Source of the DNA: Halicephalobus mephisto
Taxonomy: Eukaryota; Nematoda; Chromadorea; Rhabditida; Panagrolaimidae
DNA: 64,000 nucleotides
Assembly (NCBI GenBank): GCA_009193035.1
Contig: SWDT01000101.1
Location: 210,985 to 274,984 of the forward strand
Reading direction: 5' to 3'
In this document: positions 38,768 through 63,287 of the stretch, piece after piece
Position numbering within the stretch: the stretch's first letter is position 1
Layout: every line of letters begins with the position of its first letter
Made by a program: the position numbers and the translations under genes
The notes under the pieces: generated by a model
The model's input: the letters and a program-made list of their open reading frames with translations, nothing else
Databases searched by the model: none
What the model was told of the DNA's origin: nothing

Positions 38768-38810
38768 AATTGTTTCATTCTCTTACTCATTTTCACAAAT
38801 CTTCCTCGAA

Positions 38811-40022
38811 ATGGATTACGTTCTCTGGAGAAGAGATGAGCTGGCTGAACTGTACAATTGTACCTTCTACGACGTGGATTCTGTTCCCCTGTATAAAAGA
38901 CAACATCCGTACGTCGGGATCTCGATGATAATCATGTTCTTCATCTTCGAGATACTGTACGTCCCTTCTTTGCTCGTGATGAGTAGACCAAACTTTTTCA
39001 AGCAGAGCTGCTACAAGATCATGTTCTTCATGGGCATCATCGATGTTTTCTGCTTGTGCATCAACACAGGAAGTACTGGACTTTTCGCGCTCACTGGAGC
39101 TGTTTACTGTACTTATCCAACACTTATCTACGCTCTCGGGATGGGGGGATTATGTAAGTTCCTTTTTAATTCAATTAACAGTAGACTATGATGTCAATTT
39201 CCAGCTCTCTGGGCTGTTCAGTCAGATTCGGGAATGATTCTGGCCTTCAACAGATGTCTCGAGATGTACGATCCCACTCTCTGTTCCAGGCTTTTCTCGG
39301 GAAAAAAGACCTATCTTTGGCTGTTGATTCCGATTGCCCATTCTTTGTACTTTTGTTGGTTCACAAAGCCAGTTGCGTTCAGTGCTATCTATGTGAGCTG
39401 GTTCTTCAACCCCCACGTAGGGTACTTTGATGATCCCCAACTTCGTGTGAGTAGTTTTTTAGTGTTAATTTTTAAGCTGAATGAATTACAGTATGCAAAC
39501 ATCCTCCACACAATTCACAACATCACTGTAGTCGTCGTCATGAGTCTTCTCTACACTATCTTTATACTTTTGTTGCTTAAAAAGTCCCAAATTATCCAGA
39601 CCTTCCACAGAACTGAATCTCAGAAGCAGGTAATTGATGAGATTACGGTAGTTTGAGGCTTTGAATTTTCGATTTAGTCCTTCCTTCAAGTCTTCATCAT
39701 TTGCATGTTCAACGCCATCGCAGCAGCGATTTATATCTACGAACAGTTTTTCCCAGTTTCGGAGTATATCATTCTGCTCGGATCTTACTGCTGGACCTGC
39801 GCCCATGGAATCCCTGCCATCATCTACTTGGTGATGAACAAGTCCATCCAGAAACACATCATGAGATCCTTAGGTTGGCAGAATAAAGTCTCTAACATTG
39901 CTTCTGTCACTCCTGGATCCACAGTCGGTAAACCTATAAAATTTGAAGAACTTTTAAGTTACAGTATTTCAGCATCAAAAACTCCCATCGTTCCAAACAA
40001 TCCTATTACAATATCCGAGTGA
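38811..40022 (+). CDS. Serpentine chemoreceptor, Srt family, copy B
   Basis: Compact paralog of copy A. Exons 38811-39153, 39205-39446, 39492-39629, 39678-39927 and 39973-40022 give 340 aa. Introns are 45-51 nt. The start is [22 protein letters not shown]2 reads [16 protein letters not shown]. The last exon was placed by phase: the frame also stays open straight through the 45-nt intron 4, so an unspliced form would add 15 residues ([15 protein letters not shown] after the shared G). The 50-nt size match with copy A favours splicing. The C-terminus ends PITISE here and STVTD in copy A, so tails have diverged while TM5-TM7 remain almost identical. Confidence 0.87.
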
Positions 40023-47487: not shown

Positions 47488-49506
47488 CACCTTGACGACA
47501 ATGTGACCCACCCGTGGGTCACAGATTTTTTTCTTATTTTTATTTGTGTCTACGGTAACTTTTTAGTATTTTTTGATGTAATTGTGTAATATGCACTCTA
47601 ACAATGCTACTCACTTTGCAGACACAAAAAAGCTGTAGATATATTTGAAATTTTTAAAATCAAAACAAACATGCTATATTTGACATTTACTATGCTTTTT
47701 TTAAAACCACTCTAAACAAAACGACTTGAGGCACTGATTGCATCTTGTATTGACTTTGCGAGTTTTTTTGGTAGCAACAGTACGACCGTGAAGGGCTGCC
47801 AGGACTTTGTAACATCCATAGCATCGACGTCGATTGAGAGATTTTGGACCCGGAACTTCCTCTAGAAGATGCTTTGTTGTTGGGTTGAAGGGCTTTTGGC
47901 TGTCAAGCAATGACTTAATTATTTCAATTTTGAAGTCATTGAATCTTATTTTTTTGACATTATCATGGTATAACCTCCAGACGTTTACCATTGCTGTCTG
48001 AGTAAGTAGGTGAAAAAACAGCCTGATATACCATTTTGTTGTTTTCCGAACAAATGGAGTGAAACTGGCCATATGATCACTGGCATCAACAAATGACTTT
48101 CCTTTATTGTAAGCCTCAATGATGGTCGGTTTCCCTTCAGGAGTTCTTGAATCATCATGTTTGGTCGAGAGCACCAACAGATCACGCTTGTTCTTCCATT
48201 TCAAGACAGTGACACCGTTTTTGTTCTGTTGGGCATAAATATCACCTTTTTTAAGCTTCTTGCTAGTGACAGCTTTGGGTAGCCCTTTTCTATTCCTTCT
48301 GCAGGTCCCTATCAGATCAGTTTTTCTATTGATCAAGTTTTCTGCCAGCTGAACTCCCGTATACCAATTGTCCGTGAATAAACATCTTCCATCGTCAAGC
48401 AGCCCATCCATTAACTTCATGACGACTGACTCAGCCAATGATCCTACCCTTGTTTCATCTTTCCCAGCATAAACCATCGTTTTAAATGTGTAGCCTCCAG
48501 AACAGCATATCTTGAAGATCTTGATTCCATACTTGTGGCGTTTATTAGGAATATACTGTTTGAAAATTATACGACCACGAAACGGAACTAACGACTCATC
48601 AATGCATATTTCTTTTCCCGGACTATAAGCAATCTTAAAGAATTCATTGAATAACTCAATAAAGTGCGAAATCTTGAATAATCTATCTTTTCCTGTTGCC
48701 ATAGCATTGTTTTCCTGTTGCCATAGCATTATTTTCTAGATGCAAACTATTCAAAATAGCTTCAAACCTCATCCTTGGCATAACTTTTGAACCAATTGGG
48801 CCTCCAAACACCGGCTTGGTACTCCAGTAATCTCTTAGACGCGGTAGTTTAACAATACCCATCTGTAGACAAAGACCAAGAAATCTCCTCAGTTCATAGG
48901 CGTCAATTTCATCCCATTTACTATTCTTTGCTTTCCCATAAATGTTTGTTTGTTCAACTATCAAATTAACAACTTTATTATCCAAATACATTTCATAGAA
49001 GTCAATCGGCTTGTTACAACCATCCAAAATACCAATATTTACTCTCGAATCTTTAGAAAAAACCCATCTGTCATTTTTTGTAACATTATCGGTCCATCCA
49101 GGTTCATCATCAAGGTCCTCTTCTTTTGATTCTTCATAGGAATTTTCATCTGAACTAACTACTAGCAAATCACTGATAGTTTCCTCATCAGCAGCTTCAT
49201 GATTCCCTTCTTCATCACTTTCCAATAATAATCTCTCAAAACTTTCGTCTAAATCTTCTGCAGCCATAGTTATCTGAAAAATAAATGATAAATATTCGCG
49301 TAATTTTACGAGATATTATATCAAATTATATATTGTTAACGACACACATCGTGAATTTTTTGGATAAAAAGTAGTTATTAACTAAGTTTATAATCAGCCA
49401 AAGAAATTCTGTCCTCAGGGACAATGTGACCCATCCGTGGGTCACAGCGGAAAAAGAGAAAAAATTGCGCCCGTCCCACGCAAAAATTCGCATTGTCGTC
49501 AAGGTG
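47488..49506 (-). mobile_element. piggyBac transposon, complete ends, TTAA target sites
   Basis: A 2019-bp element bounded by TTAA at 47484-47487 and 49507-49510. Terminal inverted repeats are CACCTTGACGACAATG at the left and CATTGTCGTCAAGGTG at the right, identical over 16 bp. Just inside each end lies a subterminal palindrome around GTGACCCA-CCGTGGGTCAC (about 47502-47521 and 49428-49446). TTAA duplication and a DDE_Tnp_1_7-type transposase identify the piggyBac superfamily. The perfect ends indicate recent insertion. Confidence 0.95.
47701..49267 (-). pseudogene. piggyBac transposase, broken by a 22-bp duplication
   Basis: The transposase reads on the minus strand in two frames: an N-terminal part from 49267 to about 48690 and a C-terminal part from about 48729 to 47701. 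The N-terminal part starts with acidic residues and then has the family region around DEIDAYELRRFLGLCLQMGI. The C-terminal part carries the DDD-type catalytic surroundings C-I-D-E-S-L-V-P-F-R-G-R, F-T-D-N-W-Y-T-G and F-V-D-A-S-D, and ends in a Cys-rich finger (C-Y-G-C ... C-N-Q-C-L-K-S-F-C). The break is a tandem duplication of 22 bp at 48691-48734, whose units both start TCCTGTTGCCATAGCATT. It shifts the frame by one base. Everything else is open, so this single event accounts for loss of the full-length ORF. No intron is evident. Confidence 0.92.
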
Positions 49507-50359: not shown

Positions 50360-51843
50360 ATGAATTCTTTTGATGGCTGGGACGTTATTCGACTTGATCA
50401 CAATCATGATGCCGAATGGAAGAGCAGGATGATTGTGAGTAATTTTGATCCTTCTATAGACGAAATCATGGATGATGAAGATATCATCAATAAGGATCGT
50501 CCAAAGCGAAGTTTCGCAGTTTTTAAAAGAGGCTTCCGTCCCTGTTATGAAGACACTAAAAACATTGGACGGCTTATTATACAATGTCCTCCTGAATTTT
50601 CGAGAAGTACCTTCGAGAAATTTAGAAAAAGTCAACTTTTCTATGATCGTAATATATCGGGAATTTACATAAACAGAAATCAGGTGAGTTTATTGTATCG
50701 ATTCATTTCCTAATCAATTTTTAGAAATTCGCAATATGGACAACGACCAGAGATAGTGAAATTATAAATCAAATCAAGAAAGAAATTCGGAAGATTGCCC
50801 CAGTAGACGATAAGATCTCTTGGGAAGAGTTTAACAATGATAAACATGCTATTACTGCGACTTATAAAAATAATCAATGGGCATTTGACGGATGGGATTT
50901 GTTTAAGATGGATAAATCAGCTAAAAAATGGAAAGATGGAATCACTATTTACAAAGCAAACCCAACATTGGAACAAGTGATTGAGACCATGAGAAACCAA
51001 ACATATTGTAAAGCCCTCTTCCGACAGGGAAGGGTTCCAAAATGGGAAGATGAAATTAACTACGGTTGTTTGCGTAGAAATTTTGCAAAATTCGAAGATA
51101 TTGAGAATTTCTTGATTGCATTTTCGGAAACCAAATTACTTAATAACACAATTATCAACGGAATTTACATGAACAATAAGTTATCTATTAGTATCTGGCT
51201 GGGATCTGATGATAAAAATGAGATCTCTAATCTTTCCGCTACTGTTAATGAATTGTCTGGCATGGGGCCAAAGAATTGGAAATGGGAGTCCTTCATTAGT
51301 GGTCGTACTCTGAAAGAAAAAAACGGATATTTCTCAACAGGTTACTTGAAAGATGATAATTCAATAATCTGCGAAAATCGCACTCTTCACCATTTATTTA
51401 GCAAATCATTAAGCAAGGAATCGATAATTCTCTACCGCAACAACTTTCCAGAGACAGATGATGGATGTTATATTCTGGAGACCGAGTTTCCAGATATGGA
51501 TAATGATTGTATGAATAAAGTCTATGAGATATTCGAAAAATTGAACACTGAAGGAATCCCCACTTATACTGAAATCATCGACGGAATCATCGCGAAATAT
51601 AATGAAGAAGATTCCTCAGCTACTGTAAGTTGGATAAAAGTATGACTTTATCAGACTGTAATTTTGCAGATTCGTATGGCCGTTTATCCTTATAAACTAA
51701 AAGTTCCTGTTCATAATGCAGAAATAGCCATAACCATAGCGGCAAAGTTGAAACAAATGATATTGTCCAAGTTCCCCGATCTTCAATCCCTCCTGATCAA
51801 AACCTATCCACACAATAACCAAGACAAAGATGTTTTGGTCTGA
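50360..51843 (+). CDS. Tandem eIF4E-like repeat protein (three folds), 465 aa
   Basis: Exons 50360-50683, 50725-51624 and 51670-51843, all phase 0. The chain is three repeats of about 145 residues, each resembling a shortened eIF4E (mRNA cap-binding) fold. Repeat 2 (about aa 159-300) is clearest: FDGWDLF, FKMDKSAKKWKDGITIYK, LFRQGRVPKWEDEINYG and IINGIYMNNKLSISIW. These line up with the eIF4E segments that hold W56, W102-E103 and W166, here Trp177, Trp215-Glu216 and Trp266. Repeat 1 (about 4-145) starts FDGWDVI and has Trp20, Tyr63-Glu64 (FRPCYEDTKN) and Trp113 (KFAIWTTTRD). Repeat 3 (about 300-450) is degenerate, recognisable from LYRNNFPETDDGC and EIIDGIIAKYN, and has no cap-type Trp. The dorsal Trp used for eIF4G binding is not seen. 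There is no signal peptide. AATAAA lies at 51919. The assignment is by eye and needs a profile search. Confidence 0.7.
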
Positions 51844-52584: not shown

Positions 52585-54912
52585 ATGGTTGAAAATAACG
52601 GGTATGTTTCAATTTTTGAGCTTTTCTAAATTCTTGATAAATACGAAGATTTATAAAAATAAATCAATATTCCAAAAAAACAGGGATCTAGTTATAAAGC
52701 TTTAACGAATTAAAGATCTTTTATTTTTTTTTAAATGAAATATTATTTTTGACAATTTTCTCAGATTACAGTAGTTCAATAAAATTACAGAAATTCATAA
52801 AGTTCTAGGACTTTTAGAACCTACTATAGGTGTTTATAATTTTACAATTTTCGATCTCAATTGGAAAATTTTTAAAATTTCGTCTTAAAAAAATTTTAAT
52901 AAAAAATAGTTTAAATTTACATTACTGTTTTTGAGACTAAAAATACAAGACTCAATTTTTAGATTTTTTATAAATTTAGAGAATACTTGTTTCAATTACA
53001 TCTTTCTGAATTCACCCGTAGAAAAAAAGTTTATCATTTCATTTGAATATAGCAAATGAATCTCAGAAAACTTATGAGTTTCAAAATTTTATTTGCTAAG
53101 TTATACTTTACTAAATTTTTCAACTTCTAACTCTATCCGTAACTCCTGATCCCTAACTCCATATCCTTAACCTCTGGTCCCTAACCTTCAATCTAACTTC
53201 CCATCTCTAATCCTTAAACCCTAGCCTCCTACTTCTACCCCCCTGATCCCTACCCCTGGACCCCTACCCCCTGACCCCTATCCCTTGACCCACTGATCGC
53301 AATTTCAGTTACTTTAAAAACAAAACAGTCATCATCACTGGAGCTTCTCGAGGAATCGGAAAAGCGATCGCTTTGAAACTCGCGAAAGATGGAGCGAATA
53401 TCGTCATTGCAGCGAAAACAGCAGAACCCCATCCGAAACTCCCTGGTACTATCTACACCGCTGCTGAAGAAATCAGACAAGCTGGAGGCAAAGCCCTAGC
53501 TTGTGTTGTTGATGTCAGAGATGAAAGATCCGTCGATAAATGCATCCAGGACACAATCAAGGAATTCGGAGGAATCGATATACTGATCAACAATGCTTCG
53601 GCTATTTCCTTAACTGGTACAGTAGATACTCCGATGAAGAGATTCGACTTGATGCACAGTATAAACACCCGAGGTACTTTTCTAATGAGCCAAAAGTGTC
53701 TACCGTACCTTGAGAAGGGAAAGAACCCTCACATCCTGAACATTTCGCCCCCACTCGAGATGAAGTCCAAGTGGTTCGCCCCTCACGTCGCTTACACTAT
53801 AGCCAAGTTCGGTAAGCTTAAATTTGAATAAGAAAGATAAAAATGGTACACACAAAAAAGAGTACATGGAATATAACATATGAATACATAAAAACGACTC
53901 TGATGTATCGTATATATTGCATCTAATATACCGATATATTAAGTATGACATTGGTAGATTTTATATCATGTATCAATACATTAGAACGACTCTGATGTAT
54001 GGGATATATTATATCCGACGTATTTCTACATTAAGTTAATATCGATGTAGTGCATTTAATGTATTGATATATTAAATATACTATATTCGATGTATTAGAA
54101 TTATTTTAATGTACTTTGTTGTGTGTAGGAAATTAATATCAGAAGCAGATTCAAATATACTTTTTATAATATCAAAGATAAATTTAAAAATATAAAAAAA
54201 TTAAAAATTACTCATCTTGCTTCTATTCCCTATATTTATTATGATAAAAAACACTTTTAAGCATAATTAGGACTGTCGATTTTCGACTCGCATTGATAAA
54301 TAACCATGTCGAATATAGTTATTAAGGATTTTCGTGGTGGGAGTGGACAAATTTAAGATGATTATCAGGCATTTTCGTGACAGGAATTGACTGTTCTAAA
54401 TGTTTACAGTTGTTTTTTGAACAAAATCTAATTCGAATTTAGGTATTACCAAATTTAGTGCAATTGTCAGGGACTTTCATGATAAAAGCTGATTTGGTGT
54501 TTTGTAACAGATGTTATTGGGTTTTTAGGAATGTCCTTGTGTGTCCTCGGGATGAGCGAAGAGTACCGGGGTTCCGTTGCCGTCAATGCCCTCTGGCCCA
54601 GAACGATAGTTTGGACAGCGGCTACAGACATGCTCGGAGGATCAAACAACAAGACCGTGAGCCGAAAGCCAGATGTCATGGCAGATGCTGCTTACTACAT
54701 TCTACAACAAAGAAACAACTTCACCGGAAGATTCCTCATCGACGAAGTTGTCTTGAAGGAATCTGGAGTGAAAAATTTCGACAAATACGCTTATGATCCA
54801 AGTAATTGATTGAATTTTGATTTTTAATTAAGAAGAAATTTCAGAAGCTCAGTTGGCTCTTGACTTCTTCCTTCCAGAGGAACTTCTCGAAACCCCGAAT
54901 TCGAAACTTTGA
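52585..54912 (+). CDS. HSDL2-like short-chain dehydrogenase, peroxisomal, no SCP2 domain
   Basis: Classical SDR most like HSDL2 (hydroxysteroid dehydrogenase-like 2; C. elegans dhs-6). Exons 52585-52601 (17 nt), 53309-53811, 54529-54801 and 54845-54912 give 286 aa. Motifs are TGASRGIG (aa 16-23) for NAD(P), NNAS, the catalytic Ser152, and Tyr168/Lys172 in AYTIAKFG. HSDL2-specific stretches are KTAEPHPKLPGTIYTAAEEI and NALWPRTIVWTAATDML. HSDL2 is usually about 418 aa with a C-terminal SCP2 sterol-carrier domain; this protein stops after the SDR domain with TPNSKL, a canonical type 1 peroxisomal signal. It probably reduces a carbonyl or hydroxyacyl lipid in peroxisomes; the substrate is unknown for the family. 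Intron 2 holds a family A repeat, and intron 1 a run of CCCTAACTCC/CCCTGACCCC-like sequence near 53130-53290. Confidence 0.92.
53120..53295 (+). repeat. CCCTAAC/CCCTGACC-type degenerate run in SDR intron 1
   Basis: Short degenerate units such as CCTAACTCCATATCCTTAAC, CCCTAACCTTC and CCCCTGACCCCTATCCCTTG run up to the exon 2 acceptor. The C-rich, telomere-like texture contrasts with the AT-rich surroundings. Confidence 0.6.
53847..54128. repeat. Repeat family A, best-preserved copy, in SDR intron 2
   Basis: Ends TACACACAAAAAAGAGTAC and GTACTTTGTTGTGTGTA are inverted. The interior is made of units with CGATATATTAAGTATGACAT, CATTAGAACGACTCTGATGT and ATTATATCCGACGTA. Confidence 0.7.
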
Positions 54913-61047: not shown

Positions 61048-63287
61048 TCTTACAATAATTGTCCCTCAGCATTGAAACTACGTAGTAATTTTCTAATTAT
61101 ATATTGTTGACTTCCTACTATAATCTGTAAATAAAGACTGAGTTCCCTAAATCTGTGACAACCACACTTTTATAGAGATTAGAGGTCACATTGATTTCTT
61201 ATGAAATTACCTTGACTTGAATTTGTATTAATTTTTAGAAAATTTAATAATTCTCAATTTTAAATGTTTGTGTCAGAAATGTCCACTTAATTTAAGTTCA
61301 AGAAGTTTCAACTCATGCTTGAGTGTTCTCACTGGAATTCGAACCTTCTTTAATTCATAATTACTAGGAATTACAACTATTTAAAAAATGTTCGCATTCA
61401 GAAAGAATGTGCTAAATGGAGTTTCGTACTTACTTCGGTTGCTGTAAAATTGTTTCAGTGACTTGTACATTATAGAAAACAGAACGATGTTATCAGTGGA
61501 TCATAAGTGCTGTCAAATACAGTTAGGGTTTAGTCGTTCATAAAGCTGGATCCGAGGGAGAACAAGAATCTCATAACTTACAGTTACGAATAATAATCAC
61601 TGTACTATCAAAGACTGAGATATCGTAACTTTAATATCGTAAATTGAAGAATGAAAGTGAAATAAATATTTTAAAAAACAAATTTTCATACGTTTATTCA
61701 ACATAAGCGTTAAGACTGTCCAATAATTGCCAGCATTTCTACTCGCGCTGATCTCATTTTTTCTTTTAAATTAGCCTTCTTGATTACTAGAGTAGCATGA
61801 TTCGTCCGAACACCAAATAGTTCTTGAGAGAAAAACCAGTCATAAAAAAGGAAAAAGTCATAAAGGAGAAATTACTGACAGACGTCATACGTTGGTTTAA
61901 AAAATCCACGACTACATCTAATTAAAGCCCAGTACTTTTATTTATAAGCTTTCTTCATAGAAAGCGTTCCAAAATTTAGATAATTCCCACCACAAGATTA
62001 CTCAGGAGCGGAACTCAATGTTACCTCAAACTTGGGTAATTAAACCGAAGATAACGAATGTCATTTCTCTGTTCAGGAAACGCGGCTTTTTTTCTTCTGT
62101 CAGATCTGGAAGTAACAGAAGAAAGAACAAGGTCTGAGAGGAAGCGCTAGACCAAGAAATAACCAATCAGCATGCGTATTAGCAATTTTCGCCCTTTATT
62201 CAGTGTTACCAAAGTAGGTTAGTGACACTTGTCCCAACCTAGCAATGTTAATTCCAAAACTAAGTACGACACTCTACCATCAATGACCAATGTTTAGTCA
62301 ATCAAATCTAGCATTTCTTACGAGATATAATTTAGAAACCTATCCTAGATCATTATTGTCACTTAAATTCTGCTGATGCAGATCTTTTGTTATTCACTGT
62401 TATATATTCATCAGTAGAAGTCTTAATATATCAGAACCTAGTTAGTTTCCGGACAATTTGGTGACTAATATTTTACGTTACTTGATTTTGTTCTATTCTC
62501 TGAGACAACCGCTCAGAACATTCACGATGATCTTGTGGTTGAAACCTTAAGCTTAGTATTCCAACTGACATCTAGGAAGTCATGAAATCTTTGGATTTTG
62601 TCTAATTTCCTTAAGTAATAACCATTTTGAAAGAATATCACAAGAAATTTTTACTTAGACAGCAAATTAAAAAAGTGTTTATTCATTTTACAGTACATAG
62701 TGTATGGAAAAGAAGCTCAAATGATATCTAGAAGATTCAGAGGTAGACGTTCTTGAATATTATCCAAGATTTATAACAGAGAATTTATTGAGAACAACGT
62801 TGGATAGTATTCACAAGCTTTCAAAGCCTCAATTTCTTTGATACTATCCTAAAATAATCTTTGAACGACAATTTAAGGCTCGAAAGTAAAACCGTATTAT
62901 CTATTAACATCACGGAAACAATGAAGATAATAATCGGTAAACGCCTATTCTAAGAAGCTTTACACTCTAGTTTAATGCTCAATAATTATGATATCACTGA
63001 TCAATTTTAATCTATAACTGCTGAAATGATCTTTCAGCAATTTTTAAAAGTTTTGTGTATTTTATATTACTGTAAGGACAAATAACTTTGACTTTTTACA
63101 TTAATTGTACATTTTATACAGATTTAATGAATTGGTATATGACAAAGTGTGTATTGAATTTTTAATCTCTAATAGTAGTTATCTAATTTCCGGGAAGCAA
63201 CAGAGAGAATTGGAAGGAAAATTAATCATGATATCACTCGGAACTAAAATCGACTGATACAACACAACTTTCTGAGAGAGATTTCTG
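61048..63287. other. 2.2-kb gene-poor region
   Basis: No supported gene. 62027-62050 repeats the CTCAAACTTGGGTAATTA core seen at 15.3 and 29.8 kb, followed by a less AT-rich stretch to about 62240 (GAAGCGCTAGACCAAGAAAT, AATTTTCGCCCTTTATTCAG) that may be a retroelement remnant. 62260-62395 loosely resembles 34760-34920. The rest is AT-rich and featureless. Confidence 0.5.

Follow-up and report, generated by a model that had tools for sequence, protein, structure and literature searches.

Does a single nematode gene encode several copies of the cap-binding eIF4E fold in one chain, and if so, what could such a protein do? This question is raised by a locus at positions 50360 to 51843 (plus strand, like all features of the gene given below) of a stretch of 64,000 nucleotides from contig SWDT01000101.1 of Halicephalobus mephisto, which was analysed as a whole and is called the window here. 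In the first-pass annotation, the locus was described as three exons coding for 465 residues. Splicing and translation closed the gene model at these positions, with three exons, 465 residues and no internal stop. The encoded protein has a mass of 54.5 kDa and a pI of 6.1. Exon 1 (50360-50683, residues 1-108) opens the first unit of the protein and ends at the beta5-beta6 hairpin, inside which the 41-bp intron 1 (50684-50724) is located in phase 0. Exon 2 (50725-51624, residues 109-408) encodes the rest of unit 1, the whole of unit 2 and the bulk of unit 3, and exon 3 (51670-51843) encodes residues 409-465 and the stop codon. Intron 2 (51625-51669, 45 bp) lies within unit 3, and a paralog of the gene has an intron at the matching place. 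Both introns are of the GT-AG type. Unit 1 (residues 1-158, 50360-50874) spans intron 1, unit 2 (residues 159-303, 50875-51309) is free of introns, and unit 3 (residues 304-465, 51310-51840) spans intron 2. Two units open with the motif FDGWD, as had been noted before, and these motifs begin at residue 4 and residue 162. Units 1 and 2 are therefore spaced 158 residues apart, not about 145, the period that had been proposed.

For assignment of the units to the eIF4E family, we applied the Pfam IF4E profile (PF01652), whose gathering cut-off is 28.7 bits. The whole protein matched in two stretches with 42.5 bits (E 7.4e-11). In the comparison repeat by repeat, which had been proposed along with the first-pass annotation, unit 1 alone passed the cut-off with 32.0 bits, unit 2 stayed below it with 20.2 bits (E 5.4e-4) and unit 3 gave no match. 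The cut-off is also passed by the paralog, which is located on C123, and by two related proteins, P0001 and P0002. Exon by exon, an IF4E search of the genome gave nine matches and revealed five ordinary eIF4E loci, with neither tandem gene among the matches. A phmmer search of the PDB with the plain protein was weak (best eIF4E E 0.022). When a profile of nine unit-1 and unit-2 sequences was used, eIF4E structures came out on top, the best at E 6e-6. Of 31 distinct sequences retrieved with E values up to 1, 28 were eIF4E or 4EHP; the remaining three were one transport protein and two mannose isomerases (best E 0.092). Shuffling excluded that the similarity between units 1 and 2 arises by chance or from mere composition, as their local score of 135 compares with a shuffled mean of 30.8 and was not reached in any of 1000 shuffles. 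Unit 3 compared with units 1 and 2 stayed at chance level (837 and 419 of 1000 shuffles scored as high), hhalign gave a probability of 0.3% for a relation to them, and a unit 3 profile found no eIF4E in the PDB. Because Pfam, shuffling, profile search and hhalign were all negative for unit 3, a third repeat cannot be claimed from sequence alone.

The published aromatic signature of eIF4E is given in a 2005 survey as H(x5)W(x2)W(x8-12)W(x9)F(x5)FW(x20)F(x7)W(x10)W(x9-12)W(x34-35)W(x32-34)H (PMC1260017). Compared by eye, the residues of the tandem protein do not follow this signature overall. The Trp43, Trp56, Trp102 and Trp166 positions are occupied in unit 2. Missing there are the FW pair (72-73) and the Trp located 11 residues past Trp102, and the distance from 73 to 102 also departs from the signature.

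The predicted structures of units 1, 2 and 3 all match the eIF4E fold, including its alpha/beta arrangement. Units 1 and 2 share 12-21% identity with the 50 solved entries listed as their fold matches, and unit 3 shows the same predicted fold at 8-15% identity among the 50 structural alignments listed. Against a viral structure library, unit 3 gave nine matches at E up to 0.001, seven of which are named viral eIF4Es (from giant viruses and an entomopoxvirus); these are taken as further eIF4E matches and nothing more. The earlier claim of three tandem eIF4E-like folds is thus backed by predicted structure for all three units, with additional support from sequence in the case of units 1 and 2. 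On these grounds, sequence for units 1 and 2 and the predicted model for unit 3, the protein is a divergent member of the eIF4E family with tandem eIF4E domains in one gene. Unit 3 represents a candidate homolog which was missed by sequence searches and is seen via its predicted fold.

The paralog on C123 (29155-27174, minus strand; locus L016) consists of four exons and encodes 615 residues in four units, with unit 1 present twice, followed by units 2 and 3. Unit 1 was duplicated along with its intron, and an intron at the matching position borders the second copy. Outside of this genome, the three units recur in two further sources with 37-51% identity per unit. P0001 (489 aa), encoded on a JGI contig of 1544 bp, shows 40% identity over the full length. 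P0002 (424 aa, FO519_003240) belongs to Halicephalobus sp. NKZ332 and is the only named homolog found. It contains the same units and lacks the stretch linking units 2 and 3, which could be either a true loss or a matter of gene prediction. P0003, an ENA protein of 117 aa, corresponds to exon 1 of a gene closely related to that of P0001. It matches P0001 at 82 of 107 positions and appears to run into an intron at the place of intron 1. P0001 crosses both intron sites unbroken, while P0003 apparently enters an intron, and therefore P0001 is probably a cDNA. This suggests that the copy of this relative is probably transcribed.

Among 5.77 billion proteins, of which candidates sharing words with the query were scored, no further relatives were found at E 0.001, 0.01 and 0.1 (4138, 7993 and 665 candidates, respectively). 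A search for a single-unit ancestor with a unit profile of 142 aa, covering 665 candidates of 0.55 to 1.75 times this length at E up to 0.1, returned only P0003. A possible extra copy on C302 (E 0.015) was rejected as a chance match, with no alignment among the tblastn output listed and no unit in three frames. Three relatives in a collection of this size, with word-sharing candidates scored, are few, and could speak for a decaying or mispredicted gene, that is, a functionless tandem duplicate. We consider this highly improbable, and it is already contradicted by the reading frames, which are open in the tandem gene and in the C123 paralog. Between these two, the four corresponding unit pairs have pN values of 0.23-0.31 and pS values of 0.55-0.69 (e.g., 0.23 versus 0.55), giving pN/pS ratios of 0.38 to 0.45. 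Since pN is lower than pS in all four unit pairs, the gene is under purifying constraint. The recurrence of the same three units in P0001 and P0002 also argues against decay, as do the intron positions: both are shared by the paralog, and that of intron 1 apparently by P0003 as well.

The residues that had been named as a possible cap pocket were all confirmed in place by alignment. In unit 2, Trp177 (50929-50931), Trp215-Glu216 (51043-51048) and Trp266 (51196-51198) are the equivalents of Trp56, Trp102-Glu103 and Trp166 of eIF4E. In unit 1, Trp20 (50417-50419) and Trp113 (50737-50739) are the equivalents of Trp56 and Trp166, and Tyr63-Glu64 (50546-50551) occupies the positions of Trp102-Glu103. 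The Trp43 equivalents are Trp165 in unit 2 and Trp7 in unit 1. The pocket set is hence complete in unit 2 and lost in unit 3, as the first-pass annotation held; unit 3 is devoid of Trp here, and the other three proteins each have a single Trp in this unit. Four sequences were aligned for unit 2, and the set of Trp56, Trp102, Glu103 and Trp166 is held by three of them. The equivalents of Trp43, Trp56, Trp102, Trp166 and Glu103 are invariant in the three proteins with three units. Of the 118 unit-2 columns covered by each of these proteins, 39 are identical. In unit 2 of the C123 paralog, the equivalents of Trp56, Trp102 and Glu103 are gone, and thus the pocket is dispensable somewhere in the family. 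Lys162 and Arg112, which we take to be the cap-phosphate contacts of eIF4E, have equivalents in none and one of the four unit-2 sequences, respectively, the Lys162 column being uncertain due to a shortened hairpin. Among the six sequences aligned for unit 1, the equivalents of Trp56, Glu103 and Arg112 are present in all, that of Trp43 in five, and that of Trp166 in all five which cover this column. Position 102 is occupied by Tyr (3), His (2) or Gln (1). As far as can be judged from the alignments, unit 2 is a credible candidate for a pocket that holds the base, though with weak support for the phosphates, and unit 1 is a credible candidate for such a pocket in altered form.

The same residues can be read in another way. 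The eIF4E fold may have been reused as a protein scaffold which does not bind caps, with the Trp residues serving for packing and units 1 to 3 contacting other proteins; it might, for instance, be a decoy for proteins that normally bind eIF4E. The loss of the pocket in unit 2 of the paralog and the missing phosphate contacts of unit 2 would fit such a scaffold, and so would unit 3, which is pocketless yet conserved between the paralogs about as well as unit 1 (57% versus 58-60%). However, packing would not readily explain that the Trp43, Trp56, Trp102 and Trp166 columns of unit 2 are invariant in the three-unit proteins, while both of the remaining Trp columns that all three cover are variable. 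Moreover, Glu103, a base-reading residue for which a need in packing is not obvious, is kept in six of six unit-1 and three of four unit-2 sequences. We therefore regard reuse as a scaffold as a realistic but somewhat doubtful possibility.

On the dorsal surface, the (S/T)VxxFW site for eIF4G and 4E-BP is not found. The equivalent of Trp73 is absent from all six unit-1 and all four unit-2 sequences, in accordance with the earlier observation that a dorsal Trp is lacking, and its position in unit 2 is occupied by Ile194 (50980-50982). A hydrophobic motif persists at this site in the form of SIDEIM and TLEQVI. In eIF4E, non-aromatic substitution of Trp73 disrupts the binding of eIF4G and 4E-BP, and the 2005 survey reports Trp73 for the members of all three non-protist classes except one fly protein (PMC1260017). 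Among the five single-unit eIF4E loci of H. mephisto, the dorsal Trp is present on C174, C93 and C217. It is replaced by Cys on C281 (167579-168380, minus strand) and by Ile on C221 (356877-357289, minus strand), which is unusual by comparison with this survey of animal eIF4Es (PMC1260017). Since two of the five single-unit loci are also without this Trp, its loss does not single out the tandem protein, and the missing dorsal Trp tells less than was held at first. If the lineage uses other contacts, as the losses on C281 and C221 may indicate, the tandem protein could be an unusual initiation factor which recruits eIF4G or an eIF4G-like partner via lateral or non-canonical surfaces, and the hydrophobic character of the dorsal site would be in line with this. 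In view of the effect of non-aromatic changes at Trp73 (PMC1260017) and of the five further eIF4E loci in the genome, such a role is improbable.

The reading we prefer is that unit 2 holds a capped 5' end and that, without a dock for eIF4G, the RNA is sheltered or held back and not translated; we put it forward tentatively, as having nearly an even chance of being right. The pocket formed by Trp177, Trp215-Glu216 and Trp266 would most likely hold an m7G- or trimethyl-G-capped 5' end. Nematodes have both of these caps and some nematode eIF4Es take both, as stated in the survey (PMC1260017), so that either cap would be possible as a ligand. Because the dorsal Trp is absent, the usual docking of eIF4G would not be expected, and cap binding of this kind would shelter the RNA or withhold it from initiation. 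Unit 1 may act as a site that is altered or binds more weakly, and unit 3 may provide a scaffold or a protein-binding surface. As five ordinary eIF4E loci are present, the tandem protein need not serve initiation. In a wider and rather unlikely version, these proteins would form an undescribed class of animal cap-binding proteins with three to four eIF4E folds per chain and one or two sites for capped or trimethyl-G (spliced-leader) RNA, storing or silencing this RNA without an eIF4G dock and using the degenerate unit as a platform for partners. Such a class would so far be restricted to nematodes, with a Halicephalobus species as the named relative.

Trp at both 43 and 56 is described as the mark of class I eIF4Es in the survey (PMC1260017). 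This pair is present as Trp7/Trp20 in unit 1 and Trp165/Trp177 in unit 2, with the exceptions of unit 1 of P0002 (Ser at 43) and unit 2 of the paralog (Leu at 56). The tandem proteins thus share with class I eIF4Es (metazoan eIF4E-1; nematode IFE-1/2/3/5) the fold, the Trp43/Trp56 pair in units 1 and 2, and Trp102-Glu103 and Trp166 in unit 2. They differ from them by having three or four units per chain, by the missing dorsal Trp, by shortened alpha1-beta3 (unit 2) and beta5-beta6 segments, and by the partial aromatic signature. 4EHP (eIF4E2, class II) is a single-domain protein in which the cap-binding fold serves repression and not initiation. Its structures are among the fold matches of the tandem units, but units 1 and 2 differ from it in bearing a class-I-like Trp43 and Trp56. 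The separate locus on C93 is read as 4EHP-like. Ascaris eIF4E-3 (PDB 3m94) is also found among the fold matches; like C. elegans IFE-1/2/5 and unlike the tandem proteins, it is single-domain. Both Ascaris eIF4E-3 and IFE-1/2/5 accept trimethylated caps, according to the survey (PMC1260017).

Inspection by eye showed that an intron in phase 0 follows immediately after the Lys162 codon in the single-unit eIF4E genes on C217 and C221, and the loci on C174, C93 and C281 show no break at this site. The phase-0 hairpin intron of the tandem genes is located one codon further from Trp166 than in C217 and C221. The position of this intron and the Trp43/Trp56 pair suggest that the tandem gene descends from a class I eIF4E gene, with unit 1 keeping the old intron.

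To our knowledge, eIF4E is known solely as a single-domain protein. No description of tandem, double or multiple eIF4E domains was found among the open-access papers listed; most subscription papers lie outside this search, which is therefore no proof. The fold is known, and its arrangement appears to be new. If true, a tandem form in an animal that uses spliced leaders would mean that a cap-binding fold can be multiplied and diverted from ribosome recruitment to a different task, and intact, altered and lost pockets in one protein would provide a natural series on the requirements of cap binding.

With regard to spliced leaders, the genome contains an SL2 RNA gene (46.7 bits, Rfam cut-off 41), which, like the Halicephalobus homolog, supports its nematode origin. 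SL1-like RNA gave 47 matches genome-wide at E up to 0.001, none of which reaches the Rfam SL1 cut-off of 75. Several of them are paired divergently at a distance of about 400 bp, for example at C216:68960-69464 and C314:193573-194077. One SL1-like match (47.7 bits, cut-off 75) is located in the window at about 61945-62046 on the minus strand; at the Rfam gathering thresholds, the 64-kb window gave no matches.

Other genes were recognised around the tandem gene. About 1 kb upstream of it, at 47701-49315 (minus strand), a piggyBac-type transposase was identified (Pfam DDE_Tnp_1_7, 168.7 and 87.9 bits), which is spread over two reading frames overlapping around 48683-48735. Exons resembling a serpentine chemoreceptor are located at 38769-40022 (plus strand), the first of which matches Pfam 7TM_GPCR_Srt with 98.9 bits. 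Downstream, the next gene recognised among the listed frames is represented by a short-chain dehydrogenase exon at 53289-53831 (plus strand; Pfam adh_short, 110.3 bits).
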